DNA of 64,000 bases from Amyelois transitella (Eukaryota; Arthropoda; Insecta; Lepidoptera; Pyralidae). Location: assembly GCF_032362555.1 (NCBI RefSeq), contig NC_083520.1, forward strand, positions 1-64,000, in the 5' to 3' direction. The notes under the pieces were generated by a model, which ran no database searches, was not told the origin of the DNA, and worked only from the letters and a program-made list of their open reading frames with translations. The position numbers and the translations under genes are program-made. How positions within the stretch are numbered: the first letter of the stretch is position 1; the number at the start of each line of letters is the position of its first letter. Shown in pieces: positions 13,501 through 64,000 of this stretch.

Positions 13501-16500
13501 TAGTCGTTTACTAATGTTAATGTTCATACCAGATAGGTTATAATTGGTTGTCTTCCTTATTACTATTTAATATTATTAAAATATGGATATTAAAAAAAAA
13601 CAATTTGAATAAATTATTAATTACAAAATCTTTTTGAGCCTGTACAGGTTGGTTTCGGCACACGTGGAGGGTGTGAAGCTGCAGTGCATGCCGTGCGCAC
13701 CTTTACTCATTCCAATATGTGCGAAGTTCTTTTAAAACTAGATGTCAAAAACGCCTTTAATTCGGTCAACAGGGATACCTTGCTGAATGAAATTAAATTG
13801 CATGTTCCGGAATTGTACAACTTTTTACTACAATGCTACCATACTCCTTCAAAATTAGTACACAAATATAATGAGATTGATTCGGCCACGGGTTGTCAGC
13901 AGGGTGATCCCCTCGGTCCAGCTATTTTCAGTTTGGCAATTAACTCAATAATTCACGGTTTAAATTCAAAATTAAACGTATGGTACCTTGATGACGGAAC
14001 CCTAGGTGGAGACTTTAAAACAGTTTTGAAAGATTTAATTGATATAAAAAACAAGTTCTCTAATATTGGTCTGGAATTAAATTTTGTTAAATGTGAATTA
14101 TATATTTCTGAAACTTTAAATACATCTTTGGCATCTCAAATTATTCAAAATTTTAATAACATAGCCCCTAATATTAAAATTTTGACAAAAGATAGTCTCT
14201 ACCTACTTGGTTCACCGATATTTGATGAGGCCATACCTTCCCTTCTTAGTAAATCAATTTCAAAATTCACTGACTATTCGGACCGCCTCACCAAAATTAG
14301 CAGTCACTCTGCGTTATTCGTTCTAAAATTCTGTTTATTCATACCAAAATTAACTTACCTGCTCCGTTGTTGCCCTATTTGGAAATACCCCACTTTGGTC
14401 CAACCTATTGATCAACTTTTAAAAAATAAAATTGAATTAATACTCAACATAAGTTTTGGCGAAGAGGCATGGACCCAAGCCTCCCTTCCAATTAGGAATG
14501 GAGGCTTAGGAATCCGAAAAATTTCTTGTGTAGCCCTGCCGGCCTTCTTGTCCTCTATCCACAGCACATCTAATCTCGTAGGTAATATTCTTAAGGTCCC
14601 TGCGACTACAAACTACGAGATTGCGTGCTTGGATGAGGCCACAAATGCCTGGCTAACCGGACCGAGTCCAAATCTACCCTCCAAGCTACAAAGCCAAAGG
14701 GCCTGGGATTCCATTTCATCTAATTTTATTTTCAGTTCTCTTTTGGAAAATTCCTTTAGCAGAGATAGGGCTAGACTATTAGCCGTGTCCAGACCAGAGT
14801 CCGGACATTGGCTTCATGCCTATCCATCTCCTGCTTTAGGAACTTTTCTAAATCCCCTAACTCTTCGCGTGGCTGTCGGTCTCAGAGTCGGGGCTGAAGT
14901 CTGTGTGGACCACAGCTGTGCCTCTTGTGGGGTTTCTGTTGATCGCCTAGGTCACCATGGCCTTGCCTGCTCCTCGGGTGCCGGCCGCCAATCCCGCTAT
15001 GCTGCTCTCAATGACATCCTGAGATGGGCGCTTGTCAGCGCCGACGTCCCCGTGGCCCTTGAGCCCCAGATCGTGCGAGACGATGGCAAGCGCCCCGACG
15101 GGATGTCATTGATACCCTGGCGCATGGGTCGCGCGCTGGTCTGGGACGCCACTTGCGCAGATACGCTGGCGGCGTCCTACCTCCCTGCGACCAGTAAACA
15201 GGCTGGTGCGGCGGCGGACGCCCGGGAGCGCTTCAAGACCAATAAATACAGTTATCTTGGCACCCAGTACGAGTTCGTACCGTTTGGTGTCGAGACACTT
15301 GGTCCTTGGGGCAAGGGCGCGCGGGAGCTCCACAAGGCGCTCAGCAAACGCCTGAGGGAGGCAACAGGAGACCCTCGCGCGGGCAGCTTTCTTGCGCAGC
15401 GTATTGCTATTGCAATACAGCGCGGGAATGCTGCCTGCGTGATGGGAACCCTTCCTAGGGGTCCAAATTTAAACAATAATGTTTTTGGCTTGTAATTTAG
15501 AATAGTTTTTAAACGGTTTTATTTAGCTCACCCCGTTTGTTTTATTTATTCTTGGGTCAAATTTAGTAATTCAAATTTCACCCTCTTCCTGTCAACCGAT
15601 TAATCTGAAATTTTGTATACACTTTGGATTTTGGTGACAATATAATTATGTTTATTCATTATCATTATAAATTCAAGATGGCCGCCGTTACAAAATGGCG
15701 GATAATTTAGGTTTCATTAATCCCATCAATATGGGTATCAAATGAAAGGGCTCAACAAGCAAAATACAATATACTATAAAAAATTGAAATCCAAGATGGC
15801 GGCCTCTACAAAATGGCGGATAACTTAGGTTTTATCAATCCCATCAACATGGGTATCAAATGAAAGGTCTCAACAAGTAGAATACAATTTACTATTCAAA
15901 ATTAAAATCTAAGCAGTGGGATAAAATGTAGCCTATGTTACTCCTGAAGGTTAAGTCTATCCCTGTGCCAAATTTCATTCAAATCGGTCCAGTAGTTTTT
16001 GAGTTTATTCGTTACAAAAACAAATAAAAATAGGTAAAAAAACTTTTTAAGTTAAACGGTTTTATGTTAAACATACATTGCAATGTTTAATATAAATGTA
16101 CTAAAAACCAAAAAATAAAAAAATAGGTAAAAAAACTTTTTAAGTTAAACGGTTTTATGTTAAACATACATTGCAATGTTTAATATAAATGTACTAAAAC
16201 CCAAAAAATAATAAAATAGATACAGTCGTGGGAATTATAAACATATGCATAGACTAGACTAAAATAAAACCGTGGGGCACGTCAATTGTCTACAATCGTT
16301 GATTAAAATGTTTGTTTTGTAATGTTACACTATAATTAGGCAGTTGTTCAACCGACAACGATGGACGTGTGATAAGTAGGGCTAGAATGTGGAAACAAGT
16401 TAGCAAGCTCGATTAAGCGAGTTTTAGGGTTCCATAATGTTGAGCGAGTAGTACTTTTATCATAAGTTTTGTCGATTAAAGACAAACTACGAGCAGTGAA

Positions 16501-22778: not shown

Positions 22779-25700
22779 CTATGAGTAGATTGTCATCAGG
22801 ATCATCTGAAAATGTAAAAGAAATACACGTTGTGGATTATACGAGTTAATTAATGCACTTTACAATAATATTAACACACGAACCTCTTCCAAAGATAATG
22901 GGTTAGACTTCATCTTGGTATCCAGGCTCCGGTAACGCTCTGAAACAACAGATTTGGGTCATTGGTATTGAATGTACTCATTTTTCTTGATAAAATGTAA
23001 ATAAAGTGTACGATTAATCGAAAAGTAATTTGAGATATATCTTTTAATAATCTGAATGATGTCTCTTAGTAAAGTCTGTGAGTAACGGTTCTAGTGCGGC
23101 AGTGAGGTCGCGAGGCCGTTACCGTGCGCGAGGTGCAGCCGCGCGAGCGCCAGCAGCGCGGCGTCGGGCGGCAGGCGCAGGCCGCGCGCGAACCGCAGCA
23201 CCACGCACTCCACCACCTTGTTGCTGGCCGCCACGCCCGCCGCCCGCAGCAGCGCGCGCGTGCCGTACGCGGACACCGCCCCGCCGCACGCGCGCCCGCG
23301 CGTTAGTGCCGGCCGCCAGTACGCCAGCAGCGCGGCCAGCGCGGGCAGCTCGTGCGCCGGCAGCCGCCCGCTCAGCGCCGCGTCGCGCAGCGCCACCAGC
23401 GCGCGGCACAGCTCGCGCGAGGGCCGCGCCGGCAGCAGCGCGCGCCAGTGGCGCCGCAGCAGCGCGCGCAGCTGCTCCGCGTCTATGCTCTCCCGCTACG
23501 ACACACATTATTGTTAAGCTTAAGTACTATCAGATAAATAAAGGTGAACTTTTACCCTGAAGGGCCCGACATTCACAGTACAGCGGCGACCGTTCAAGTT
23601 GGGCTGTTAACGTGGACCCGCACTGCAGCGAATGACAAGTTCTACTGTATTGGTATCCATACTTATAATCCCGAGCTGCTTCAGCATATATGATGGAAAG
23701 TTGTAAAAAGACAGTTATCTTGATGAGCGTATACCTGGTCAGGTTTGAGGCTGGCCAGCATCTTGTCGGCGACGTGGCGCACCTCGGGCGGCACAGCGGC
23801 GGGGTCGACGGAGACCTCGCGCCACAGGTCGCGCAGCAGCGCGTTGTCGTCGTTGAGCTCCCACACGGCGGAGCTCTCGTCCGTGAGGATCCGCAGCAGG
23901 AAGGCGGCGTCCGTGTGCGCCGGCCGCGTGTGCGGCACCACCACGTAGCGCCCCGCCGGCAGAGTGAAGAACGTCGCCACCTGCCGTCAGAAACTTACAT
24001 TACCTCATTGTACATTCAATTCTAATTCTACATTCTTCGTCAACATCACTTCTTTTGGTTCCGCAACATTACATGTAGACAGAGTCAATGGAAGGCCACG
24101 ACTTTGACTGGCAGACTATGGAAATAACAATGAATATAACGGATTAGTAATAACCGTTAAATGCAGAAGAGACAGCCCTTAGACAAGTGACTGGGTACCT
24201 CTCTGGCGCGGCACTCGTGCGTGACGTCGAGCGGCGCGCGCGCGCGGTCGCGCGGCGCGGCGCCCGGCGGCAGCTCGTACACGGCGAACCCGACGGCGTG
24301 CAGCCGCCGCGCGCGCTCCGGCCAGTACTGCTGCGACACCGCCACCACCACGTGGCACTTGCGCGACCCCGTCACCTGCCACACCATGTCACTGTCTTCA
24401 TAGCTGATAAAACTTGTTGAAGGTTTGTCGCCACCATTAAACGATTATTGATCACGTGAAAAGAAAAGTTGAGGCGTACCTGCACGTGGAAGTGCGGGTT
24501 GGCGCGCGCGGTGGGCGCGTCGGACGGGCCGCCGGCGTTGTAGCCGCGCCGCCAGCGCCGCCGCGCCAGCACCGCGCGCCACGGGCGGCGCGTGCGCAGC
24601 GCGGGCTCGCGCAGCCAGTCGTCCGGCCCCACGTGCACCAGCTCGAGGCGCGCGAACCGGGCGCTGAACTCCGCGAACGACATCCTGCGACGCGTGCGCA
24701 CCATACACGATTACCAATGTATTGAATTTTTACAATCAATTGTCCTTATTTATAACATTTCATTAATCTACTTGATACTTAATAATCAGATTAATTTACT
24801 TATAATTTATTCTACTACACAAAAAAATGTTACCCAAACTGTCAAAAGGGCAAAAAAAAACAATTTTTAAAATCTAACTTTTACATCCTGGCAATTAAAA
24901 TGAGTCCTAAATGAGGTTCAAAATGTTCCTCATCTTTATCAACGATGTAGTAAGTAAAGTGGCTAACTTACACATATATACTAATATTATAAAGCTGAAG
25001 AGTTTGTTTGTTTGTTTGTTTGAACGCGCTAATCTCAGGTACTACTGGTTCGAATTGAAAAATTATTTTTATGTTGAATAGACCATTTATCGAGGATTTA
25101 GGCTATACAACATCACGCTGCAACTATTAGGAGCGACGAAATAAAATTAAATGTGAAAAATACGGGGAAAATTATTCATCCATTTAGGGCTTCCGTGCGC
25201 TGCGAAAACGGTTCAAAATACCAAAAATATATGTTTGAAAGAATTATACCTCTTAAAATAATCTAAATAAATGTCCACGACAGTAATATGTCTATCTTTT
25301 AAGATTAACTCACTAGAACCGTTTTTATGGTAATCAATTTTGGTTATTTGCGTGGACCAAGAACAGTCTGGAGAATGACGTTCGTAAATGCCACAAAGAC
25401 TATAATTGCTGTGGGATTTGAGACTCTTCCACGCGTGCGAAGTCGCGGGCAACAGCTAGTAACAAATATAATCCATTAAATTATGTACTTAAATGTAATA
25501 ATTATGTGACGGTAAATAGTTTTAAAACTAAATATGTAATCATGAATGTAGTATCTACAGTTGTCAGCGGATTCGCATGATAATAGCACTGACATTGAGA
25601 TAGTTTTGGTGGAAATGAGAGCGAGTGCCTCCTCAACAATACAGCCGCCACATGCAGCTCCGGCGGCGGCGAGAGGTCGCGGATCCGGAGCGTGGGAACG

Positions 25701-28700
25701 CCGCGCCTGCGCCGGCGCCGGCTGCGCACGCTCACTTACATACTTATCTAAATTGTTTTAGTTAAGTTCTTGTATAAAATACATTTGGTATAATGTTCGC
25801 TCCGTCATTTCTATGTAACTACCTACCTATGCCTTGTAATATTGAATTCAATTGCCAAAAACTTTCGATTTTCCTACAATGTGATTTCAGTTTTATTTCT
25901 AAACTATATTTTTCCCACAGCTCTACTCGCGTTAAACTAAAATTCTTAGAATAAATGATGTTTTTATCAAAATCAAACATGGGTTATAAAGAGAAAGAAA
26001 GTTTTACGGACAGATAAAACGACATATTCATTCATAATTTCAGTATGGACTTGTTTGGATTAACCAATTACAAGTATAGATTTTGTATTGTCAACTATGG
26101 TAAAAAGCTTTATCGAAACAGTTAAAGAATTAAGTATTTTAAAGAAATAATAGCGGAAGTATGAAACTTTCATACGACCCGGCTTTTCTAAATATGTGGG
26201 GCAGTGCTATGAAAGTTAGAAGGAGTTGATAAAAACAGTATATCACGTGTGTGCCGACCAGAACTCGTCGGGGCCGGCCGCCAGCAGGTCGCGGTCGGCG
26301 GCGGCGAGCGCGGCCAGCTCGGCGCTGGGCGGGCCCCACGCGCCGCGCCACGCGCCGCCCGCCGCCGCGCGCAGCCGCACGAGCGCGCCCGCCTCCGCGC
26401 CCGCCTCCGCCTCCGCCTCCGCCCGCACGCGAGCCAAGCCCGACACGCAGTACGGGTGTCCGCCGATCAGGCCCAGCCGCTGGGGGACCGAGTGGAAGAC
26501 ACTTCAATAATGTTCTACAATGTTTTTTGTGTGTGTTACCTTAATATATCTGGCGGTAAGCATGTCGAGGACTAAGGTGGTGTATGCAAACTCAGGAGAA
26601 CATAGACGTGGGAAAGAAATGTCTAATTTTAGCAGATCGGGAGGCACTTTGGCTAGAGATATCGAGCTAACGCGTATAGCTCACCGGAGTGTGCTTGGGC
26701 TGGTGGGCGGCGGTGGCGACGAGCAGCGTGGAGCGCGGCACGGCGGAGTTGAGCACGTGGAAGGTGAGCGCGGCGGGCGGCTGCAGCGGGAAGCTCTGCA
26801 CCACGCCGCCGCTGGCGTCCTGCAGCGCCTGCCACAGCGCCGCGTCGCGCACCGCCGGGTACGACCCGTACAGCCTGCGGGGGACATTTACTCTTCAACT
26901 TGCTGTCACACACACACACACACACACAGTAGGTTTAGGTATGTATAATTCTAAATCTCATCATCAAAGAAGTTATTTCAAGACTGTTAGGTTTATCTAC
27001 CTCGTATGGAATAGGAGCGTGATATATTTATTTATTTACGCCAATAATACAACAGTATCCTCTTGAAGTTTTTGGCAAAGAATTCTAATATAACAAAATA
27101 TTACTATATATGACTTTTGCTGGGGCTGTCGACCGGTGGTTATCGACGGAATAATTTTCAGATGATTTGGGAATAGAGGTAACAGGAGGGAGACAATTTC
27201 CATAGACTTGGATATGTTCCACTGCGAATTGCAATATTAATAATGTGACGTGAAGGCTGCGACATAATCTCGAAATATTTTTGAAAAAAGAGAGGCGCTA
27301 TCTTGGACCATAGATGATTCGAACTTCAGTTTGTTGATTGCCCATTTTATATCATTGTCATTGAAATTAACAATATCTACATTGGTACCACCTGGGAAGG
27401 TTTGTGTATAACTTATAGACAGGAGTTTCAGTCAAAAAAAAACCCTTCCCAAATATTTATGTGGTATAATAGAACTATACTAGATTGTAATAGTTGAGGC
27501 GACTAACTTGGCATAAGCTTTTTCCAACAAAGGCAGCGTGAAGTCTGCGCGCGCGACGGCGCGGCTCCCCAGCAGGCGGCCCGCGCGCGTCGGCAGCCGG
27601 TCGTCCACGCGCACCTCGCGCCACTCGCTCCACACCCAAAATCGGAACCTGCCAGTCGTTTACTCATCAATTCATATATTTTTCAAACTGTCATGATCCA
27701 GTATGTTAGTTGACGATGTTGACAAAGTCTGAAATCCATAAAATGTTTAATTTTATGGATTACAGTCAAGTTCGGTTCGGTTCAACAATAAGATAAATTT
27801 ACGTGTACAAAAAGTCCCAATTTTCTAGTTAATCTTCGCCGTTTTCTATTAAAGATCAGGTTGCCGAAATCCAGTCAATACTAAGACAAAAATGTCGGCA
27901 AGGTGTCCTAGCTCCATAAATGCAGCGGCTCTGAGGGGTAACTCCTCAAAGTTTGAAATTGAAGATATTACCGAAAGAGACCGCAGTAGCCGACGCGGAA
28001 GGACTGCGGCGGCGCGACGCGCGCGAGCAGGCGCGGCGTGCCGCACAGAGCGGCGCACGCGCGCCACAGAGCGCCGCAGCTCAGCACTCCCGCGCCATCC
28101 GCTTCTACGCGCCATCTACGCACGTGACACACACAACATGCTACATTCAGTCAGAAAAGTATCGGGAATGGATTATTTATTTATGGTTCCAAATTCAAAT
28201 TTTTGTTTTTTTGTTGTTGTTAGATTGGCACAACTGTTTTCCATTTTGGCGCGGAGTTTGAGTTGCATCTGTTGTTTACATTAAATACAGTGCTATTTTT
28301 AGTTATATCATATCTAGTGTGTATTGCTAATTTCATAATGGATAAAAACATCGAACAAAGAGTGTGTCTTAAATTTTGCATTGCCAATGGAATATCGTGT
28401 TCGGAGTCACTGAATATGTTACAGAAGGCTTACGGTGAATCGACTTTATCAAAAACTCGTGCTTATGAGTGTTACAAAGCGTTCAAAAGCGGTCGAGATG
28501 TGATGGAAGATTTGCCTCGCTCTGGTAGGCCATCAACGTCTGCAACTGAAGTTAACATCGCAAAAGTGAAGGAAATAGTGACTGAAAATCCTCATTCAAC
28601 TTTGAGAGAGATAGCCACCGAACTTTCTGTATCTCACGAGTCGATCCGTACCATTTTAACTAATAATTTGGGTATGAAACATGTTGCCGCTCGGCTAGTC

Positions 28701-31700
28701 CCAAAAGACCTGAATTTTTTTCAAAAGCTCCATCGCATGAGAGTCGCTGAGGACATGCTAGAACGAGTCAATTCCGACCCAACATTCATGAAACGCATTG
28801 TTACTGGTGACGAGACGTGGGTTTACGAGTTTGACATGCAAACTAGTCAACAAGCTTCGGAGTGGCGCCTTCCAACTGAACCGAAACCGAAAAAACCACG
28901 CCAAAGTCGTTCAAAAGTCAAAGTCATGTTGACTGTTTTCTTTGACTATCGCGGTGTTGTGCACTCGGAATTCTTGCCGGAAGGTCAAACGGTAAATAAG
29001 GAATATTATTTGAGTGTTATGCGGCGTTTAAGAGAGCAAATCCGACGAAAAAGGCCAGATTTGTGGAAAGAAAATTCTTGGATTTTGCACCATGTGTTAG
29101 AATTATTTTATTTTAATTTGTTTTATTTTAAAATACTAGTTATAAGGAAAAGGTTTTAATATAAAAATGTCGATGATTAAAAGTATTGTTTTTGATGAGC
29201 GGCCATTTTGACTGAAACGAATTCATTGCTTGGCGGGCATTTGTATCGTGAGGATTACGATTGGTTTCCGCTGAATAAATTTGATTATAATATTAACAAA
29301 TACTTGTTTTATTCCTGATCACTTCTGAATTATTCTATTAGTTCAGAAGTGGGATTAAACAGGAATATTACTTAATATTCTAATCACGCCCATATTTTTG
29401 GTATTTGGATTTGACTGGACAGGTAAAAAAAATAATTGGTCGAAAATAAAGGTGAGTTAAAACTTATGTTTATTTTTTTGTTAATCCGTAAAAATCTAAT
29501 CAATCACGAGTAATAGGAAAAAAGAAATAATGTTAAAATGTATTTTGGTGATGTTTTTAGGTATATGCAAATGAAAATTTGAAAAAAAAAACAGTTTTAT
29601 ATTTTGTGTTAATTTTTAATCCATCAATATCCAACTAATCATGGCGGATTGGGAGACATATATTGTTTAAACATAATTTAGTGATGTTGTTCCACTATAA
29701 CAAATGATAATTTGTTATTTATAATTTAAAACAACTAGCTAGGTATATGAGGCAATCAAATTAATGAAAACATGTTAGTAATTTTATCACCCAAACTGAT
29801 TACAGATTGTTAGAAATAAACGAGATTTGAATAAATAACCAGGAGTTTTATTGTAACAAAAATGACACCAGCAGATTTATTTCTTAGGAATTGACAAGCT
29901 AGACATAAACATAGACACAAACAACAATTTCAAATTATAAATTCAACACTCTCTCCAAATTGTTGCGGTCCTTAACCTTCATAAATATGTAATACAATAA
30001 TAGTACACACATATGTTAAAACAATAGACTTAAAACAATTTTTACAACATCTGACCAATTCCTAATTTATTTCTAAGATACTGATATCTAACTTTTGTTA
30101 ACGCTTTCGTAAATATATCAGCACTTTGTTCAGAACTAGATATATAATTCAAATCAATAATTTTTGCTTCATATTTTTCTTAAACAAATTTATATTTTAT
30201 ATCTATGTGTTTGCAACGTTTATGATAATTCTCATTTTTAATGACAGAAATTGCACTTTGATTATCTATGTTAAGAACAAAACAATCCTGCCTATACTCA
30301 TTTATATCTAACAAAAGCCTCTTTAACCAAATAATTTCTTTCGTTGCACAACACGCAGCCATAAATTCCGCTTCTGTCGTTGACAGTGCTACGCTTTGTT
30401 GACGCTGACTCGCCCATGTTACAGCAGCACCATTTTTGATGAAAACATATCCCGTCATAGACCTTCTTGTTTCTGTATCATTTGCAAAATCAGCATCGCT
30501 GTAACATTCTACTACATTTTGTTTACTTGGTTTAAAACATAGACCATATGTCTTAGTCTCTTTTAAATATTTAAATATCTTTTTCACAGCATTCCAGTGA
30601 CTATGGTCATAACAATCAAGAAATCGACTTAATAAACTCACACCAAACATGATATCAGGTCGACTAACTATAGCCAAATGCATCAAAGACCCAACTGCTT
30701 CTCTATATGGTATTTTCTTATCTACATCTGATGTATTTTTTTCTAACTTCGTGTTTGGGTCTACTGGTATACTGTTTCCATTGGCTTCACTCATATTAAA
30801 CTTGCTAAGTAATTTTTCAACATATTTGGATTGATGTAAGCATATGTAGTCTTCTCCTCTGTCTATTTGAAGTCCAACAAAATTCTTAACTTCACATACT
30901 TTTACTATAAAGTTCTCCTTTAAATCATGGATTACTTTTTCTAATACTATTTCCTCTTTACAAATTATTAATCCGTCATCTACATATAATAATAAATATA
31001 CTTCAGTCCCATCAAAGTTGCCAGTGTAAACACATTTATCAGAATGACTATTAGTGAAACCGAACTTCTTTAATACTGAATCAAATTTATGATTCCAGCA
31101 CCTAGGTGCTTGTTTTAGGCCATATAAGGACCTTTTAAGTTTACATACAACTCCTTCAGGTACGTCTAAACCTTCAGGTGGGGACATATATATATTTTCA
31201 GTTATATCACCATAGAGAAAAGCTGTTTTGATGTCAAACTGTATCATTTTTAGATTATCTTGACATACTTTAGAAAGCAACACTCTAACGGAATCATATC
31301 TGACAGTTGGTGAAAACGTTTCCTTGTAATCTATGTCATATCTTTGTGAACATCCCATAGCGCATAATCTTGATTTGTAGATTGGTGGAGAAGTATTATC
31401 TTTTATTCTAAAAACCCACTTACAACCAATAATTTTTGCACCATCAGGTTTCTTCACCAGCTCCCATGTTTCGTTTACTTCGTGTGCTTTCAGTTCTTCT
31501 TTAATAGAATTTTCCCATTTTTCTTTTTCTGAAGATGACACTGCTTCTCGGTATGTTCTTGGTGTATCATCTTGTTGGTCATCATCTTGACAAATGTAAG
31601 TATTAGATTCATGTTGTTTAATATTTTTACTTTTAGATCTAGTTGTTATATTACTAATCTCAGTTGTATTTATTTCTCTTTCAGGTACATACATGGAATC

Positions 31701-34700
31701 ATCATTTGAAAAGAACGACTCATCATTATCATCAGATGAAGTTTCTGATAACTTACTTATTTCATTACTTTCTAAAGTTTCTGTCGGTATACTATCATTA
31801 TTTTGTTTAACTGTAGTACTATTTTCACTTTCAGACAGCGGAACCGTAATGAATTTTCTTTGTATCGAGTTTTCCATAAATACAACATCTCTACTTATAA
31901 GTATCTTTCTTGCTTTAGTATCTAATAATCTATATCCTTTAGTAGTATCTGAATAACCAACAAAAATCATTTTACTTGCCTTGCTATCCAGTTTCTTACG
32001 TTTAGAGTCAGGTACATGTACCATTACTTCACATCCAAAAATTCTCATGTGTTTCAAATTAGGCTTCTTCCCGGACCATTTTTCTTCAGGGGTAACGTAT
32101 GAAATAGATCTTGTTGGACATCGATTGGTAATGTATGCTGCTGCTGCTACTGCTTCTGCCCAATAGTATTTCTGTAAATTAGCATTAAGTAACATGCAAC
32201 GAGCTCTCTCTATTAAAGTACGGTTCATACGTTCCGCTAACCCATTTTGCTGAGGGGTATATGGATTAGAAGTTTCATGTATTATGCCTGAATTTTGAAT
32301 GTAATCTTGGAATTCATTACTTAGATACTCTCTCCCATTATCTGTTCTCATTCTTTTTATTTTAAGATCAAGCTGATTTTCTACCAATACTTTGAAATTC
32401 TTGAACTTACTAAAGACTTCAGACTTGCTATTAAGAAAATAAACAAATACTTTCCTGGTAAAGTCGTCCACGAAGGTAACAAAGTATTGAGCTCCGCCAA
32501 CTGACTTCACTTCTATAGGCCCACATAGATCGGAATGTATTAGCTCCAGCGGCTTTGTTGCTCGGGAGCCTACTTTAGGAAACGGCAGCCTGGACTGTTT
32601 TCCTTCTTGACAGTATTCACACACCTTATTCAAATTATTCTTACTCATTGTGATGCCTTCTGCACACTCGGTGAGTTTATTCAAATCTTTCAGCAGCCCT
32701 ACACGCCGTGTCAACCCATTATCGTCAAACGCTTTTTGTAAGTTTGTCCACACCTCTTTTGCCGTTTTTGCCTCTTGAATGTGTATGTAATTTACCGAGT
32801 CAACTAATAATATAATTTTTGCTTTTGCTTTCAGGTCGAGCTTCGGATCTACATTTTCATTCTCGATACAACACCATAGATCTTCATGTTGCAAATATGT
32901 TTGCACGGCAAATCTCCATGTATTATAGTTGTCTCGTCCAATTAATTTTTCAATAAGAGTCATAGCATTTGAAGCCATTTTGTGAAACAACATCCACAAA
33001 AAAATTTGACAACGGCGGCTGTAATATGTCGTATCTCTTTAGAGACCGGCGACCGAATTTCACTTTATTTATTTTACTGAATAATTATAAATAAAATCAG
33101 ATTAAGGTGCTGGGCCCATAACCTGTTAGAAATAAACGAGATTTGAATAAATAACCAGGAGTTTTATTGTAACAAAAATGACACCAGCAGATTTATTTTT
33201 TAGGAATTGACAAGCTAGACATAAACATAGACACAAACAACAATTTCAAATTATAAATTCAACACAGATCTATAATATGCCTAAAAGTCATTTTAAGTCG
33301 AGAAAGCGAGATTTTTTCTCGCGGAAAGATATGGAGCACGAGGACGAGGGCACACCTTCATACCGTAGCAGTCGCAGTCGTACGCGACGTTCTTACAAGC
33401 GACCGAGGAGGAGCAGACCTAGCGGACGACGTTCACGAACGTCCAGTGGGAGCTCGGGCCATTCAAGGTGCTCACGGAACAGAGGCTTCTCTACTAGAAG
33501 GCAAGACAGTTTCGATGAGAGCCCGCGGCGGTACAAGCGGCGCAGAACCGTGATTCGACAAGCGACCGTTAAGCGGTCTCGGAAATCGCCCGCTCGCTGT
33601 CGAGATCTTCTGAGATACGAAGAAGTTCCAGTCAGCGTAAAAGTGGAAGTCATCATAAGTGTCCAAGTACGGTGAGTAAAAATACTTGTATCAAAAGTAC
33701 TGAAAATTGCGGAAACAAAATTTCTTGTGAAAGCAATGCATGTAATTCTGAAGATAGTCGTAACTTTAGTATTCAAGATGTAATGGATTTGATAAAGTCG
33801 CTGCCTACATCGGCAACTCAATCACAAAATCACTTTAGTATGTCAACAAACGCGTTACCTGAATTCGATCCATCTAATAGAGAACAACCCGTTGATGTAT
33901 GGATTAATAAAGTTGAGGAATGTGCGTCACTGTATAAGTGGTCGGAGACACAACTTCTTCATTATGCGTTACCTAAACTTACTGGATTAGCTAAAGTATG
34001 GTACAATGGCTTACGTACTATAAAATATAATTGGACAGAATGGAAACAACAATTGGCATCGCAATTTCCCACTGTTGAAAATTATGCACAGATTTTACAT
34101 GAAATGTTAGATAGGAAGGTTAAGTCAAGTGAGTCATTAGAGACATATTATTACCATAAGATGAATTTATTAAATCGTTGTGAAATTAGTGGGGAAAAGG
34201 CAGTTGACTGTATTCTAGATGGGTTAGGTGATAGAGGATTAAGGCTAGGAGCACAAGCAGCTAATTACTCACAACCCGAGGAATTACTTTCTTTCTTGAA
34301 GTCTGTCAAAATAGATGATTCAAAAGAAAAATCATATCGGCAACCGTTCATGAAGAAACGTTTTGATGGTCCTAGTGATCACAATACAAAATCAAATATT
34401 TTGAAATGTTTTAATTGCAACGAGGTTGGACACCCTTCGTTTAAATGTACAAAACCGCTATTAACGTGTACTATATGTAAACGTCTTGGACATCAAAGCA
34501 TTAATTGTAAACGTTTGACTAAAACTAACTCAGATCAAAAAAAAACATCCGATAAAGAAAAAATAGTATCCGAGGTAAACTTAGCCGGTAGTCTGGATGA
34601 TAAATATGTGTTACCACTTACAGTTAATAATGAGCACATGACTTGTTATGTTGATTTAGGAAGTCAAAGTACATTGATTCGATTAAGTGATTTCAACAGA

Positions 34701-51333: not shown

Positions 51334-52723
51334 CTACTGGTCGTCGTCGCCGTCCTCCTCCTCCTCTGGCGGCGGCGGTGGCGGCGCGGGCGCGCGGCGC
51401 GGCAGCAGCAGCACGCAGGGCGGCAGCTCCAGCTGCAGCGCGCCGCACGACGCCGCGCGCCGCCACACGCGCACCTCCATCAGCCGCACGCCGCGCCGCG
51501 CGCCTGCGGGCACACTGGCGTTACTGAACCACTCGGGTGCAATGTCAACAAAAACGGTTTACTACAATAAGTGAGGTTTGTGATTCTATTGTACGCTCAA
51601 AACGGCAAGAACGACAGGATGGAGTTTTAATGGATAGGCTGGCCCAGTAGGCGCGGAGGTAGGTTGTAAGCAGCCTCAGAGTAGTCGACTCACCGGGCGC
51701 GTGCTGCGCTCGCCCTTCGTTGAACTCGAGCGTCTGGCTGGCGCGCGCGTGCGGGCAGCGCCGCCCCCAGCCCCCGCCGCCCGCCGCCCCCGCGCCCCCC
51801 GCACCGCCCCCCGCCCCGCCCGCCGCGCCCTCGCCCTCCGCCGAGCCGCCCGCTACGTTCTCTACGCGCTCATAAACGTTCTCTTCTAGTGGAGACTGAA
51901 TCAGAAACATTAAAAAAAAATTTTTTCTTTAAATTAAATATGTACCTTCATCGATTTACTTTCATATATTTAAAATTGGACAGTGACAGTTCGTTTAGCG
52001 TTGTACTTTTCTGAATATGTCCCTTAAAATATGAACGATACATGCACGTGAAAAGCGAATAATATTCTTGAAAACTTATCATTGCCGAAGAAAACTCACG
52101 AAATCGGCCACGAACATAATAACCTGACGTGATATCTGTGACAGCAGGATATATATAACATTCACTATGTATGTAAGTACATAGATGCGAATAAATAGAC
52201 ATTAAAATGAATTTAACACCTGTCACAGAGGTAAAGTTATACTTTAAAAACTAATAGCAATAACCAGACTAGATATTAGGAAAAAAGCACTAGAGAAAGA
52301 GACAGAGAGAGAACCCCCGCACCTGGTGTATGGGGCGCAGCGCGCGGCCCGCGTACAGCGCGCGCCAGCGCACGCCGCCCGCGGCCGGCAGGCCCACGTT
52401 CACGTACCTGTTACAACGACACCAAACACGAACTATAACAGTGCATTTGTAACTATTAACATATCAGTCTCAGAAAATATAATTTTATTAAAGTCATGTA
52501 CTTACTACAAGGACATGTAGGTACATTGATAACAATTTCACGACGAAGGAAAACAATGTGAAAAATTCTGCAAAATCATTCAAGTTTGTAACAATGACGT
52601 GAGGCCTTAGAAGCGGTGGTTATCTAGTTTCGCTCACACGTACCCGGGGTCGAGCGCGGCACTCGGCGGCGGCGAGCGGGGCGGCGAGCGGGGCGGCGCG
52701 CGGGGCGGCGCGGCGGGCGGGCA
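51334..52723 (-). CDS. kel: Kelch read-through extension (ORF2 after UGA)
   Basis: After the UGA at 52726-52724 the same exon stays open for 26 codons to a donor at 52643 (Pro-rich, PPRAPPRSPPRS). It continues through 52407-52323, 51895-51694 and 51503-51334, ending in TAG. All three junctions have GT/AG sites and agree in phase, giving 178 codons without a stop. Segments: YVNVGLPAAGGVRWRALYAG; SPLEENVYERVENV followed by a Gly/Ala-rich run and ASQTLEFNEGR; RGVRLMEVRVWRRAASCGAL; then a Pro run and acidic end (EEEEDGDDD). Drosophila kelch is known to have a second ORF reached by UGA read-through; the same layout here is my inference from phase. An alternative donor at 52745 (GTGCGTGG) would join exon 52407 in frame and bypass the UGA. 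Confidence 0.7.
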
Positions 52724-55700
52724 TCACGCGCGCTCCACCACGCACACGCCCGCGTACGAGCGCCCCAGCGACATGCGCGCCGGCAGCAGCGACCACGTCT
52801 CCGTGCTCGGCTCGAACACCTGCCGTACACACTCGCAATATATCAATTTATATTTAAAATATTTTATAAACACAAGAGTTAAACGCTACACATCCTATCA
52901 GACGCCATTTTATACTCGTTTAGATGAGAGTTCACTCATCCCAATGGATATAAAATTTGTGGCAGTTGAAGAACGGCGAATGACTGATAGTTGTCCCCCG
53001 CAATGCGCCGCGCCGTGTTGAGTTGCTCGTGCAAATATATGTATTGCAAAGCGCTAGAATACAATGCTAATAATCAATCGGGGAGTTGACTAGTTTTCAA
53101 ATCTTGTCTTAAATTAATCAGCAGGGTTTAAATAAACTCCTGCTTCTCATATTTTTTTAAATTTCGACTGTATAATCCAAAATAACAACTTTAAAATTGT
53201 AATTTACTTATACACAAAAACACGGCAATATCAACTGTGACGTCACTGTTCAAATGACAAACACATTTCTAACCTAACATAAGTGAATCCACTCTCGGCA
53301 TATTTGCATAATTTTTCTCCATTCATAGCTGTTTTTAATAGAAATAACCGTAAATTAGTGGAAGCGCGTGTAAAATTCACCACTGCATAACCTCAAACAT
53401 GTCAGTTGTCACCAAATGTCACTGCGCTCGCTGTCATTTGAACAATGACGTCATGTTCTTTGATTCTTGTTTGTAGTCAAGTGACGCTTCGATAAAAAAT
53501 CGAAATTTAAATTAATTATTAAAATTAATTTAAATAATTAAAAAAAACTATATTTTTAGATTCTTTATGACTAAATCTATGTTAATAAATAGCAAAATTA
53601 TTTTTATTGTCTACATTCAACTCGCGGATTATACTAAAAAAATATCTAACGAGATATAATAGATAAGTCAGCATGAGGGCAAAGTTCAGGTAAATATTTG
53701 TCCTGCGCTACAAATACTCGTACAAATTTAGTTAAATTTAAAATATTAAGTTCAGTAGGCAATGGAAATCGCTGACCGTACTTACCTCAACTGTATCCAG
53801 ATTAGCGGCGCCATCATCCCCGCCGACGACGTAGAGCTTGCCCGCGTGCGCGACCACGGCGGCGTTGCGGCGCGCCGTGCACATGGGCGGCGCCGGGCTC
53901 CAGCCCTCCCCGGGCCGGAACCGCTCCACGCTGCGGCGCACCGCCGGCCCGTCGTGCCCGCCCACGGCGTACAGCGCGCCCGCCACCACGCCCACGCCCG
54001 CGCCCGACCGCCGCGCTGCCACACACTACACTATACACAGCTGCAGCCCGCACGCCGCCAATAAACCTTTCCACTAAAAGTCTACAGAGCCCTGCGACAT
54101 GCCCCGCTATCATAAGCCTCTCCCGCATATCTACAACTTCACCGAACGGAGCCACATGTATCCGCAGTGTGATTAATCTATGGCTTGTCCTGAGCAACGC
54201 TTGCTAGCGGGTGCACGAGACCTTCCCAAAATATCTACCGTGGCAGAAGCGGCGTGCACCTAGCGTGTACCCTTCTACCTTTCGATAAGATAGTCAGACC
54301 ACCTAGAGAATCCTACGCTGCGCTTAGTAAGTATTATGTAGTCTGTCTATATTACCCATGAGCTGGTTGGTTTACGCGCTAGTGTTAACAGAAGTATGTT
54401 AAGTATTCGTAATATCAGTAAAAATACATGGCAATGTTAACTAAGACAAAAATTTGTACTTAAGTCGTTCTCATTAAATAATTAATAGTGGTTAATCATA
54501 TTTGTGTTGCAGCACCAGTCACAAGCACCATGGGTGGTGCCCTCCTCAACGAAGCTCCGGGGTCCGCCTATTTTCCACAAAATTTCAGTTTTTTGATTAT
54601 TTGACATACGGTGATATGATTACTAACCCGACATGTCGGCGACGGGCTCCCAGGTGTCGGTGTCGGGGTCGTAGCGCTCCACCGAGTGCAGGCACTGGCG
54701 GCTGGCGCCGTCGTAGCCGCCCACGGCGTACAGGCGGCCGCCCAGCACGCCCACGCCCACGGACGAGCGCCGCGACGACATGCCCGCGATGGGCCGCCAC
54801 GCCGCCGCGCCCGGCGCCAGCGCCTCCGCCGACGACAGCCCCGTCGCGCCGTCGAACCTGCGGCACGCCGCCATCTCGAGTCACGTCTCGGCCTCGTCAC
54901 TAACGTAGCTAACTCTATTCTATCCCAGCGCGCACTGACCCGCCCACGGCGTAGATGGTGTCCCCGATGGCGGCCACGCCCAGCGTGGAGCGGCGCGCGG
55001 CCAGCGGCGGGCCGGCCGACCACGCGTCCCGCGAGATGTCGTACACGTCCACGCTGCGCACGCGCAGGGTGCCTGCACACGCATACAGTTTCATCATCGT
55101 CTGTAGGTATACTAAGTATATCTTTAACTGATGAACTCGTATGCAGAGTGATGAGAATGAAATACATAAATAATAATGGAAGTGAACTTGACTTATTATC
55201 CGTACCACTAAAATCCATATCAGATCGATCATGATTTCACATCCAGTTGTTGAAATGGGCAGGTTTTCTCACAATGTTTTCCCTCACCGCAAGAGCATCA
55301 GTTAGTACTGATGAGCTGAACTGTTTGAGCCATAATATGTAGTGATGATAGTGATAGTGAAATGATAACCTTTAAAGAACATTGAAAAGCACTAATTTCA
55401 CTCGTTAATTAATTAAATTTGTACCAGCACAAGCAATATGAAAGTGATATAAAGTGGTAACCGTTGAAGCCGCCGACGGCGTAGACCTTCCCCGCGACGG
55501 CGGCGAGCCCGGCGCGGCAGCGGCGCGACGGCAGCTCGCTGGCCGCGCGGAACCCGCCCTCGCCCTCCAGCGGGCACAGCTCCACCTCGCGGACCGCCTG
55601 CGACCGCATGCCGGCTCATTGCTTATAGCTCACATGTAGAATAACCCACACAGTACCACGGGATCCGCAAATCACGTTTGTTACATATTATTTATATATA

Positions 55701-58700
55701 CATATAATCACGCCTTTTTCCCGGAGTGGTACACAGAGACTACCTCATTCCACTTGTCACGATCTCTGCATACTTCCTTCGCTTCATCCACATTCATAAC
55801 TCTCTTCATGCAAGCTCGGCGGTTTCGGGTACTTTTGACCTGACCCTTTACCTTTAATTATTTATTTTGAAAGGTAATATATTGTGAACATTTTTAGCGT
55901 TATTAATATGAAGAAAAAACATGCAAAAGAAACTGGAATGCAGAGAGATGTATTGGAAATGCGGCAGCGTGCAGCGAGCACCGACCTTGGGCGCCTGGCC
56001 GCCCACCACGAGCAGCGCGCGCGGCGCCCGCGGCGGTCTCCGCGGCCGCGCGCGCGCACACGCGGCCGCGCACGCCGCGCGCCGCTCGGGCCGCATCAGG
56101 TGGAACGACAGCGCCTCGATGATCAGGTCCTGCAACACCAACATCCAGGACGAACAGACAACTAACAGTATGTTTATTGCGACAGACAGAATGCAGTGAG
56201 ACGGCACACGGCGCACGCACCTTGACCTTGAGCGGCGCGGAGGCGAGCGGCTCGGCGGCGGCGCGCGCCACCAGCGCGTCCTGCGGCAGCAGCGGCAGCC
56301 GCACGTGCTCCAGCAGCGCGCCCAGCGACTCGCGCCGCTCCTGCAAACACGGTGCATACATACATGCGGTCACGGCTATATGCCTTGCGGGGTAGACAGT
56401 GACAACATACTTGAAAGAACTGAATGGCCACGTGCAGGCAGCTATTTAGCTTAATAATAGAATTGAGATTCAAACAGTGACAGGTTGCTAGCCCATCGCC
56501 TAAAAAAGAATCCCAAGTTTGTAAGCCTATCCCTTAGTCGCCTTTTACGACATCCATGAGAAAGAGATGGAGTGGTCCTATTCTTTATTGTATTGGTGCC
56601 GGGAACCACGCGGCACAATACACACACACGGAATCACAGTGACGGAAAAAAATGCTTTAACTAGTGGCTAAAATGACGAGCTCACTGTACGACGGTTACT
56701 AAACGACTCGCCCGATCCGTTTCGACACAAGCTTCAAGTCGAAAAGTCCTGTACGATAACAGCGACAGCGTGCATTATCTTTGTCAACTAAATAAGACGC
56801 ACTCGTGGCTGCTTAAGGAAACATGAAATAAGAAATATCACTGAAATTCTTTCATATCGGCTTTAAACTTTTAATAGATAATACCAAGAATGATTGATAA
56901 TATACTAAAAATATTAGTACATACATCGGGGTCGTGCTGCATCCAGCGGATGACGGCGTCCAGGATCACCTCCTCACTCGGCACCTGCCAGCATTGCATC
57001 GTCATACTTAGCTAGAGTTTTTGGTACACCGAAATAAAAATATGGAAATGATTTGTGGTACTGTGAAGCGGGAGCGAGCAAAGACTAAAAACGAGATGGA
57101 ACCTTATTGTATATCAGACTTTCCTGCCTTTCCTTATTGTATGGACTTTCCTGGATAGTACATTCAAAGATTGAAAAAATATATATATACAGGACAAATT
57201 ACACAGATTGAGTTAGCCTCGAACAAGATATCAAATCAACGATTCGTTATTTAATAATAAATACTTATGTACTTGGATAAACATCCATGACAGAGGACAA
57301 TCAGAAAAAGTTCTTTTCTTAGCACGTCCTGGTCGGGATTCGAACCCGGGACCTCCGGTATCACAGGTAAGCGTGTTATCGCTGTGCCACAGAGGCCGCC
57401 AAAAATCAACAACATTTGTTGTTCATAGTCGTGTCTGACCGTGATGCGGTCGCTGTCGAGCATGTCGGCCAGCACGTCCGGCGTCAGCGCCAGGAACTCC
57501 TCGCTCTCCATCACCTGACGAGAAAAGGTGTATTGAGTTACGTAAAATGAGTTAGTTCATTTTTTTATTAAAGTACTACGTAATCTTATTTATAGCTAAT
57601 TCTGCTACCCTCTATTGAGAACTCCAGTTATGTATTTTCATGTCTAGAAAGGTTACGTAATTACAGTAGTGACAGTCGTAGGAGCTTCACGAACAGTGTA
57701 GCCTGACTCATTTTGAATATCCTTTTCTCCAGTTTTTCTTACTTTGAAAGGAATTGTCTGGAGATAGCACGCACCTGGAGCGCGTGCGCGTCGACGTAGG
57801 CGCGCGCGGCGGCGGCGAGCGCGGCGCAGGCGTGCAGCTCGGCGAAGGCGCGGATGCCCAGCGCGTTGTCGGGCGCCAGCGCCGCGCTCAGGAAGGCGCA
57901 GCTGGCGGCGCGCACGCCCGCCACCTGCAGCAGCGACGCGCCCGCCAGCAGGCCCTGGCAAACGAACAAATAAATATACCTTCGCATTTATTATATCACA
58001 ATACTTGGTACATAACCGGGTGAAGTGCTCACCTGCACGTTGTCCTCCGTGATGACGAGCGACTCGGGCGTGTAGATGTACTCCACGATCGTCTCCAGCG
58101 CAGACGGCTCCACATTCTGAGCGAACAAAACATTACACTTATCAATTTCTCCTTTTTGTAACCAAAAACAGATGAGTTTTGTTTGCTATGAATATCATCA
58201 AATCATACATTGTCCAACCATTTATTTTAATTCTGACAGCACATTAAGTACTGTACTATTAAGTTACCAATGCGATTTTTTACAACAATGGATTTAAAAT
58301 CCAAAGAGCATTTTATATTTTATAACACATTTATATTTAAAGTATTTAGTCATTCACCTTTAATTGCAATAATATTATAATAATGCTATTAATATTTGTT
58401 GCAAATCTGGATATAGGTAAAACTATACATTTATTATCGGGTGTATAAGCGATTAGTATCATTATTTACAACTAAGTCGGTCCGCTACCTGTATGGTGAC
58501 GACGGGCCGCGTGCGCTCGTCGAACTGCGTGAACATGGCGTGGAAGTAGGGCGAGGCGGCCGCCAGCACGGCGCGGTGCGCGCACACGCCCGCGCCGGGG
58601 GCCGCGCCGCTCTCCGCCGACTCCGGCGGGGCCTGCGCCTGCGCACGTTTCTAATTATATTATTATTATATTCACCTATCGAAACTATTTTGCAAGTAAT

Positions 58701-60342
58701 GGAAGTTCTCACGATTTTATATTAAAATTTCTGACCTTAGTGTAGCTTTTATAGTATAGTTTCCTAGACAAATTTACAGAAACAAATTTAAGTTTATCTG
58801 AGAACCCACTAAACAAAATTGATATTCCAAGCAGTATATGTGATGTGATAAGTATGTGCAACAGACTATGAGGCGCACGTCGGTGAGCGCGGCGAGCGTG
58901 CGCAGGCGCGCGAGCTCGGCCAGCAGCGCGGCGGCGTGCGCGGCGGCGGCCGGCGCGTCCGGCGCGCCCGGCCGCTGCGACGACTCGTCCAGCGACGACT
59001 GCGACACGCAACGCACCATGCTGGGGACGGACATGAATGTTAAACTTAGCACAGTGTGTTTGTTTGTCTGTCTTCCACTGACATACAGACATAGGAGATG
59101 GGGTACTATACATACGTGCGAAAGTTAGACAGTCAATATATTTACATACAACTTGTAGTTATTACTGAATAGGACCTACATAAAAATTGTCAACTAGTTA
59201 AAGATCTATTTTATTATCATTAATGTTAGACACTTAACTCCTTGCAATGTAAGCATACATATACATACATATGGTCACGTTTATATCCCTTGGGTGGTGG
59301 ACAGAGCCAACAGGCTTGAAGAGACTGAATGGCCATGTTCAGCTATTTGGCTTAATGATAGAATTGAAATTCAAATAGTGACAGGTTGCTAACACATCGC
59401 CATCATTACAATATTGAATTGCACTGCATTTTATAACTGTTGTTGTGAAAAGGTGGACTGTATAATGAGATGAAATATAATTGGTTATTATTGGTTATAA
59501 TAAAATAGTAAAACTCAAAAGCAGTAAAATAGTAAATTTTAATTAATCTAATAAGAAAGGGGATAAATACTTAAAAAGATTGTATTAAAAAATAGTTCAC
59601 ACCAACAGGGTTTCCCTAATTACTCTCTCTCATCATAGCATGTTCCAAGTTGAACCATCTGCCATTGAGCTTTGGGGCCTGGGGTCTGCTGTTTTTCTAA
59701 GTACAATGTTGGCAATAATATACAGGATGTCAGAAGTAAAAGAAGGTCATCACAGGCAGACCCTGATCTTGTCAACGCAAAGAATACATTGGACACAAAT
59801 ATCATGGGGATTAACAGTATTTCGTGTACTACATACTAATAAATAAACAAGTTTTGTTGTACCACTTTAAAAATCATGTGTAATTTCTATCACAACTGCA
59901 ATGATAGACATCACCACATCCTGTTGATGAGGCCAGGGCTGAGGTAATATAACCGATGCTGTATCATTCTCATCACTAACCTGTATCGGCCGACATCCCC
60001 CTCCGCTGCATCCAACCTTAAACAATGTCATTAATTAATGTTATATATCTAAATACATACATACATATACATAGTTACGTCTATATCCCTTGTGGGGTAG
60101 AAAGATCCAACAGTCTTGAAAAGACTGATAGGCCAAGTTCAACTGTTTGGCTTAATTATAAAACTGAGATTATCTAAATGAGAACTATATATTCATAAAA
60201 TGGGCACGTGTGTCAAAAGATTAGACTAGTTATGTATTGCAACATGTAAGCTTACGGCCATCATCGTAGGTGTAAACATAACGGAGTGTAAACAAGCAAC
60301 TTACATCGCTCGGTCGCGGTCTCCTTCGGCGTGGCCGTCCAT
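52724..60342 (-). CDS. kel: Kelch protein, KLHL2/KLHL3 (ring canal kelch) type
   Basis: Fifteen coding exons: 60342-60305, 60016-59981, 59020-58867, 58638-58489, 58116-58033, 57954-57775, 57514-57440, 56984-56925, 56340-56221, 56129-55986, 55597-55462, 55072-54940, 54857-54628, 54015-53786, 52819-52724. All phases agree; 621 aa (KLHL2/3 about 590). BTB about 65-155 (AHRAVLAAASPYFHAMF) has an Ala/Gly/Pro-rich insertion. BACK about 155-300 (NALGIRAFAELHAC, ESEEFLAL, LLEHVRLPLLP). Six kelch blades from about 335 (LPSRRCRAG, RRSTLGV, FDGATGLSS, RRSSVGVGV, LYAVGGYDGASRQCL, ARRSGAGVGV, VVGGDDGAANL, MSLGRSYAGV), blade by blade as in KLHL2/3. Such proteins are Cul3 substrate adaptors; the fly orthologue acts at actin-rich ring canals. 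The first two tiny exons are inferred from phase and splice sites. Confidence 0.9.
53237..53454. mobile_element. MITE in kelch intron 14
   Basis: Inverted ends GTGACGTCACTGTTCAAATG (53237 on) and its near-inverse at 53432-53454 (2 mismatches in 23). The element may extend slightly beyond. No coding. The rest of intron 14 (52820-53785) is AT-rich. Confidence 0.65.
54016..54627 (-). other. Kelch intron 13, nothing recognised
   Basis: 612 bp between the exons for blades 3 and 4. No repeat family or coding signal recognised. Confidence 0.6.
55693..55862 (-). repeat. RTE-like LINE 3' end fragment
   Basis: Same 3' terminal sequence as 9300-9470 (CACGCC-TTTCCCGGAG, CATTCATAACTCTCTTCATG). Lies in the kelch intron between the 56129 and 55597 exons. 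Confidence 0.75.
56368..56625 (-). repeat. SINE-like repeat, near-full copy
   Basis: Reverse-oriented: GCGGGGTAGACAGTGACAA at one end, AGTCGCCTTTTACGACATCC, then GTGCCGGGAACCACGCGGCA at the other. In the kelch intron between 56925 and 56340. Confidence 0.75.
57185..57416 (-). repeat. tRNA-derived SINE, copy 2
   Basis: Minus-strand head has TGGCACAGCG (A-box-like) and GGGTTCGAATCCCGAC (B box) near 57345-57405. The body matches 905-1140. Lies in the kelch intron between 57440 and 56984. Confidence 0.8.
59021..59980 (-). other. Kelch intron 2
   Basis: Contains a partial reverse SINE-like copy at 59255-59400. A short open frame at 59640-59843 has no recognised relatives. Nothing else seen. Confidence 0.5.
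60055..60175 (-). repeat. SINE-like repeat fragment
   Basis: CATACATACATATACATAGT, CCCTTGTGGGGTAGA and CCAACAGTCTTGAAAAGACT in reverse orientation, in kelch intron 1. Confidence 0.65.
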
Positions 60343-63240: not shown

Positions 63241-63496
63241 TTTGTAAGTGATAGTGAGAGTAACAAGCAGTGATATAGATAGGTATGTATTTGAAATAAA
63301 ACTCCTACCCGAACAATGGTTAAATAACAAGGAACGGTTCAAAAAATATTGTGGGGAGCAAAAAAAATGAATCGTGCACGCGGAGCGGAGCAGGTGACGC
63401 GGCGCGCGGCGGGTGTGTCGGCGGCGGGCCGCTCCGGGCGGGGGCAGCCGCTCAGTCCGCCGCGCGAGCCCGCCGCCGCGCACCGCCCGCCTCGGC

Positions 63497-63626
63497 ATGG
63501 AGCACTTCATCGAGACCGTCCGCAAGTACCCCTGTCTCTGGAACACGACCACCATCGAGTATCGGGATCTGGAATTGAAGGACGCGGCCTGGGCCGAAGT
63601 AATGAAGGAGACGGAGCTGTCGTCAG
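63497..63626 (+). CDS. MADF-domain protein, first coding exon (partial)
   Basis: ATG at 63497 opens 43 codons plus 1 nt to a strong donor, CAG|GTAAGC, at 63626/63627. The peptide MEHFIETVRKYPCLWNT followed by YRDLELKDAAWAEVMKE is the first half of a MADF domain: acidic start, FI-x-V-x-x-YP-x-LW, then the central Trp. MADF/BESS proteins such as Adf-1 are DNA-binding transcriptional regulators of the Myb/SANT-like class. The rest lies to the right of this window. A GC-rich leader (63380-63495) precedes the ATG and could be 5' UTR. Which MADF family member it is cannot be told from one exon. Confidence 0.8.
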
Positions 63627-64000
63627 GTAAGCGAGTGCGCGTCGTGCCGGCGAGCCGCGCGCTTCGGGTGTCGGCATCGGCGTCGCCGGACGCGCCCGAG
63701 CCGCGCCGCCCCCTCCCCGCGCGCACCGCCTCCCTCACACACGCATGACATGCTGTAAACACTACGATTTCGCAGTTCGCTATTGAAGCGAGTGAGGCAG
63801 GCAGCTGTGCCGCTTGGTAGAGTAGGTACTTACCTACTAGTCCGCGGACGACCGGGCCGTGAAATGAAGCGCGCTGGCTCGCCCCACACCCGAGCAGCAA
63901 ATCCCATGCAAACCTCTTCAATGCCACATCACTAGATGGCCACATGTTATTTATTCATTGATAGGTACTATCGCGACTTGACTACTAATGTTTATTATGT

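Follow-up and report, generated by a model that had tools for sequence, protein, structure and literature searches.

Read-through of stop codons has been mapped well in flies and mosquitoes, and kelch is its classic insect case. In Drosophila, according to PMC4132726, read-through of the UGA that closes the first open reading frame (ORF) of kelch takes the product from 76 to 160 kDa, commonly at a level of about 5% and at higher levels in imaginal discs at metamorphosis; higher kelch read-through in fly nervous tissue is cited in PMC8417969. Long, disordered and motif-rich C-terminal extensions are described as typical after leaky stops in Drosophila (PMC4999894), and PMC13170385 lists headcase, dfr/vvl, traffic jam and Synapsin among the read-through genes of the fly. 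As for Lepidoptera, the authors of PMC10917498 state that they knew of no documented read-through frequency. Within the insect read-through literature we came across no account of an ORF2 in lepidopteran kelch or of its read-through, and an earlier mention in Hudson 2021, Jungreis 2011 or Robinson and Cooley 1997 is possible. Here we analyze the kelch gene of Amyelois transitella (Pyralidae), located on the minus strand of a window of 64,000 nucleotides with which contig C16 of a 327-Mb assembly begins. We suggest that three exons found beyond its UGA stop (exons 14-16) belong to kelch itself as its 3' coding exons (ORF2), and that read-through of this UGA is probably the best explanation of the locus overall.

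The kelch locus and the frame beyond its stop

The first frame (ORF1), of KLHL2/3 type, occupies positions 52727-59019 on the minus strand, in 13 coding exons that account for 596 residues in the window. All of these are identical (596/596) to the database kelch protein of A. transitella (P0001), which has 25 additional N-terminal residues, and both sequences end at the UGA at 52726-52724, the proposed read-through codon, in the context GCG UGA UGC. The precomputed domains of P0001 are BTB (PF00651), BACK (PF07707) and kelch repeats (PF01344), which identifies the gene as a kelch/KLHL2-3 orthologue.

An earlier note on this DNA had claimed that the kelch frame continues for 178 codons past the UGA, through three phase-matched exons to a TAG, and that the exon before the terminal kelch exon ends in phase 0. 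Both claims, coordinates included, were reproduced in our exon model. The terminal kelch exon (exon 13, 52819-52644) is entered in phase 0, and its part downstream from the UGA (52644-52723) encodes a Pro-rich linker that ends in LDP plus two bases, immediately before a GT donor at 52643. The frame then passes into exon 14 (52323-52407, entry phase 2), with the motifs YVNV and RWRA; into exon 15 (51694-51895, entry phase 0), with ENVYERV, a Gly/Ala run and HARASQTLEFNE; and into exon 16 (51334-51503, entry phase 1), with AASCG, PPCVLLLPR, a poly-Pro stretch and an acidic end, closed by the TAG at 51336-51334, all on the minus strand. Scored with a provisional donor matrix, the three donors involved reach 7.2 (52643), 7.8 (52322) and 9.7 (51693), the remaining twelve donors of the gene ranging from 0.4 to 11.7. 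The earliest in-frame methionine of the tail is its residue 131; exons 14 and 15 have none, and none lies upstream of most of the conserved tail blocks.

Two further features were seen on the minus strand around the first of these introns. An AATAAA at 52489-52484, within the intron that follows the UGA-bearing exon, may be an intronic poly(A) site, which would yield an mRNA with ORF1 only. Exon 14 starts with GTACGTG directly after CAG (52407-52402), repeating the letters of its own upstream donor (52643-52638); its start resembles a donor (AG/GT), as in recursive splice sites, and the sequence coding for YVNV may alone explain this.

Coding character and conservation of the tail

The spliced tail stretch has a GC content of about 80%, and contains five stops in frame +1 and just one in frame +2. 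Because the DNA is so GC-rich, the open frame alone is weak proof of coding. Codon usage, with scores in bits learned from ORF1, supports the predicted frame for exons 14 (+15.3) and 16 (+20.8), both of which resemble ORF1 in GC by codon position.

Homology provided stronger evidence. A query that joined the final kelch blades to the tail matched 347 proteins. Among the 120 matches listed, a single one bears the tail: P0075, from Phthorimaea operculella, in which kelch and tail form one predicted protein and the blocks of the window appear in the same order. Compared directly by BLASTP, the window and Phthorimaea tails match weakly (E 0.009). A full-model search limited to residues 620-775 returned nothing at E <= 10 among 7982 candidates scored, probably because the candidate list was crowded with Gly/Pro words. 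A trimmed alignment of the two sequences, with Gly/Pro runs removed, retrieved 13 standalone matches among 4035 candidates, in a search limited to proteins of about 70-230 aa. Their E values range from 2.5e-51, a top match that depends partly on the Phthorimaea row in the query, to 1.7e-3, and 10 of the 13 carry lepidopteran species names (Tuta, Ostrinia, Maniola, Vanessa cardui, Vanessa tameamea, Colias, Euphydryas, Trichoplusia, Manduca and Danaus).

When a profile was built from the 13 relatives and P0075, leaving the window out, the window tail scored 67.0 bits, compared with 9.6 for the best of 2000 shuffles, 2.5 for the reversed tail, and -39.4 and -30.8 for the other two frames. When all six-frame ORFs of the window (1898) were ranked against the tail profile, exons 16 and 15 came first, and the next had an E value of 0.42. 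Single relatives also hit these exons with tblastn, exon 15 being matched by P0123 (E 1.8e-13) and P0130 (E 3.6e-10), and exon 16 by P0129 (E 3.3e-13) and P0122 (E 1.2e-10). In the whole 327-Mb genome, the Ostrinia tail has just two matches at E <= 1, and these are the window's exon 16, at E 1.1e-5, and its exon 15, at E 0.59. It is on homology, namely the bit scores of the window tail and its controls and the ranking of the ORFs, that we judge the tail exons to be coding rather than open by chance. The view that the tail is true coding sequence, conserved over several lepidopteran families, is well supported by these comparisons. Frame disruption in related moths, which the earlier note had raised, was looked for at the protein level, and we observed the opposite, a conserved tail.

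The lepidopteran tail blocks are, in order, [GS]Y[AV]NV, E[NP]xYE[SR], WWWR, RASQTLEF, GT[MV]PRA, LS[AS]SCGTI, PCVLLL and S[CR]SYH[LV]LPES, followed by the acidic end. YxNV is present in four of the five sequences that extend to it. The window tail retains YVNV, ENVYERV, RASQTLEF and PPCVLLL, and its SCG block is degenerate. The tail had previously been described as much shorter than its fly counterpart and odd in composition: both traits are in part specific to the species, since three of the eight blocks are missing in the window.

Several results on the tail weigh against the interpretation that we favor, as do others, on annotation, donor strength, stop context and RNA folding, that are given below. 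The codon score of the Pro-rich linker (+1.5) scarcely favors the predicted frame. The score of the Gly-rich exon 15 is -11.6, the top of the three forward frames, yet one reverse frame reaches -8.6. Using tblastn without composition correction, the best window match fell inside the tail exons for 9 of 14 relatives; in the other five cases it started in exon 15 and overran it (one), was antisense to exon 15 (one) or lay in other, GC-rich low-complexity stretches (three). The blocks that the window lacks (WWWR, GTxPRA and SYHLLPES) are kept by its relatives, and GVNL replaces YxNV where the start of the Ostrinia model aligns. The absent and degenerate blocks and the weak score of exon 15, together with the ease with which frames stay open at high GC, could be explained if the tail were a decaying relic, formerly coding in Lepidoptera and no longer made in Amyelois. 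We give this almost no credence, given a 67-bit match with frame and splice sites intact, and a GC distribution over codon positions in exons 14 and 16 that is still like that of ORF1.

Link to kelch and passage of the stop

Apart from the fused Phthorimaea protein, the link between tail and kelch could be followed through contig sizes. For 6 of the 10 named relatives, the longest contig has the same size as that of the kelch record of the same species: 1,124,378 for Ostrinia, 516,846 for Danaus, and 12-20 Mb for Maniola, Manduca, Euphydryas and Vanessa tameamea. The remaining four have no kelch record among the matches listed (120 of 347). We read equal size as the same contig, which for contigs as large as chromosomes supports adjacency only weakly.

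In the databases, the majority of relatives stand as genes in their own right, for example LOC114349957 in Ostrinia and LOC123874063 in Maniola. If these models were right, exons 14-16 would belong to an independent transcript starting in a kelch intron or downstream. Indeed, of the 13 relatives, 12 are ORFs or standalone models, complete or partial; Danaus has its own upstream start and others also carry a start of their own; and in the window three short ATG exons within introns could be joined to exon 14 in phase, each by a donor with a score of at least 5. However, the length range of the search could yield only standalone records, the frame is continuous with kelch, the Phthorimaea model has kelch and tail fused, and a methionine is lacking from the window's exons 14 and 15, as noted above. 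Moreover, the start points of the standalone models vary along the alignment, which fits a start choice forced on the annotation better than one shared true start. We thus regard a separate gene as quite improbable, and hold with high confidence that exons 14-16 are coding and part of kelch.

How the stop is passed is a second question. Taking the order Lepidoptera from species names, 33 named lepidopteran kelch records are found among the matches listed, of which 31 end 7-10 residues after RSYAG, P0076 is without that end, and P0075 is fused. The recurrence of the same end in 31 of 33 records indicates that a stop, of whichever codon, is conserved there. Apart from P0075, no isoform that is spliced past it appears among these records, although others may exist within 90% clusters or among unlisted matches.

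Alternative splicing could bypass the stop if exon 14 were reached in phase 2 from a donor of exon 13 upstream of the UGA, with removal of the stop and the linker. The earlier note had allowed for one cryptic donor of this kind; such donors do exist, and we count six phase-2 GTs instead of one, of which the best is at 52745 (score 3.4) and the one at 52727 overlaps the UGA region. Even lower scores (0.4 and 1.2) occur at two donors in use within ORF1, so that a weak cryptic donor is conceivable. Moreover, the Phthorimaea model skips the stop by omitting the residues after RSYAGVC, apparently as a small predicted intron, which may be true splicing or a workaround by the gene finder. Nonetheless, the donor at 52643 is far stronger (7.2) than any of the six, and nearly all of the listed kelch records stop at the conserved position, subject to the isoforms that their clusters may contain. 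The residues encoded after the UGA also speak against removal of the linker: DPG, encoded just before the donor at 52643, recurs as EPG in two of the four other sequences that reach this point, Phthorimaea (P0075) and Trichoplusia (P0128), where it follows Pro-rich stretches and precedes a Y as in the window. Other residues stand there in Danaus (ADS) and at the beginning of the Ostrinia model. The recurrence of [DE]PG favors translation of the exon 13 sequence that follows the UGA, and hence read-through, and we consider alternative splicing unlikely.

It had also been claimed that read-through and a pre-UGA donor were the sole routes by which these exons could be given a coding frame. This does not hold entirely, given that an AUG overlaps the stop (UGAUG, 52726-52722, minus strand). 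After termination at the UGA, ribosomes could restart at this AUG, whose frame is open for 27 codons to the donor at 52643 and leaves it in phase 0, fitting exon 15; the conserved frame of exons 15 and 16 would then be reached provided that exon 14 is skipped. However, nothing points to such skipping, and with exon 14 included the AUG frame meets an early stop in exon 15. The YVNV and RWRA motifs of exon 14 are in the kelch frame, and would be either skipped or misread. Termination followed by reinitiation is, in our view, very improbable.

It therefore seems likely, judging from the sequences compared, that the tail is expressed mainly through UGA read-through, a reading also favored by the lack of an early in-frame methionine. 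Among the points against this, the base after the UGA is U and not C, the leakiness of UGA being greatest with a following C according to PMC8417969. The RNA 3' of the UGA showed no folding excess over shuffles (z +2.45; z -0.97 to +2.26 in eight windows), and an Rfam scan of the whole 64 kb gave 0 matches at gathering scores; a stimulatory structure 3' of the stop is a feature of some read-through genes and is not a requirement. Under read-through, the mRNA would be spliced through exons 13-16. The majority of ribosomes would halt at the UGA and release Kelch as a CUL3 adaptor, while a regulated minority would read the UGA with a near-cognate tRNA and produce Kelch with a disordered tail of 178 residues. 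As regards decoding of the UGA as selenocysteine, the fully sequenced Lepidoptera are reported in PMC2500217 to be without selenoproteins. Of the earlier proposal that this is the lepidopteran counterpart of fly kelch, the coding, conserved and kelch-linked nature of the exons has thus been borne out, and read-through itself is what we infer.

Possible role of the tail and comparison with known systems

A Pfam scan of the tail found no domain, and AlphaFold2 applied to the Ostrinia tail (13 sequences) gave a mean pLDDT of 51.3 and no secondary structure; as modeled, the tail looks disordered or unresolved. According to PMC2888578, pYVNV is a tight ligand of the Grb2 SH2 domain, and pYENI binds the Src SH2 domain. 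The tail might act as a docking strip, with the tyrosines of YxNV (of the pYVNV class) and ENxYE[SR] as contacts if phosphorylated, and in that state would connect the Kelch-CUL3 ligase with adaptors of tyrosine kinases, for example Drk. SH2 docking is a functional guess from short motifs, and we regard it as rather doubtful.

We tentatively consider a broader scenario, which we think possible but not probable: that read-through of the kelch UGA is older than the split of flies and moths, that its lepidopteran product is a conserved disordered tail with the tyrosine docking motifs YxNV and ENxYE, concealed in databases under separate "uncharacterized" genes, and that the stop is an ancient switch adding a signaling-adaptor strip to a CUL3 receptor. 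More generally, with a conserved and much shorter kelch ORF2 in a second order, the age of the recoding, the important parts of ORF2 and the need for a 3' RNA structure become testable. Read-through in moth kelch would account for a number of "uncharacterized" lepidopteran proteins, which would be halves of kelch that annotation has split off, and would illustrate how read-through can be obscured where introns follow the stop.

Elsewhere in the window, Pfam matches mark a reverse-transcriptase frame of 624 codons (13621-15492, plus strand; RVT_1), a calpain domain III exon (23684-23986, minus strand), a mariner-type transposase frame of 311 codons (28224-29156, plus strand; Transposase_1), a copia-type retrotransposon frame open for 952 codons (30183-33038, minus strand; gag, integrase and RVT_2) and the start of a MADF-domain gene (63428-63748, plus strand).

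For all sequence comparisons with Drosophila, a provisional version of the fly ORF2 was used in place of the database sequence. The whole lepidopteran profile did not match this provisional sequence, 892 of 1000 shuffles scoring equal or better. Three of the eight blocks did match when taken one by one, SYxNV (0 of 2000 shuffles), ENxYE (1 of 2000) and LSxSCGxI (0 of 2000), at positions 636, 244 and 284 of that sequence, respectively; SYxNV is thus out of order and the matches are not colinear, and the other five blocks were unmatched. The blocks were taken from the lepidopteran alignment, but the fly matches had already been noticed, so that the test was not blind. Common descent of the moth tail and fly ORF2 is, on these matches, a lead and not a demonstration.

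The closest described system remains the ORF1-UGA-ORF2 arrangement of Drosophila kelch, which is like the window in that the gene is orthologous, its kelch repeats end at a UGA, and this is followed in frame by a long extension of disordered appearance. The two differ in scale, the fly product more than doubling in mass (PMC4132726) whereas the moth tail is much smaller, and ORF2 is split by introns in Amyelois, unlike in Drosophila. Read-through of fly kelch, which a 3' structure is said to stimulate, has been shown experimentally; the Amyelois case, with no such structure found at its UGA, is proposed from sequence. Headcase, dfr/vvl, traffic jam and Synapsin have a similar type of extension and experimentally shown read-through, but are unrelated proteins. 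Finally, the lepidopteran "uncharacterized protein" genes, such as LOC114349957 and LOC123874063, carry the same tail by sequence, although they are annotated apart and under names without a link to kelch.

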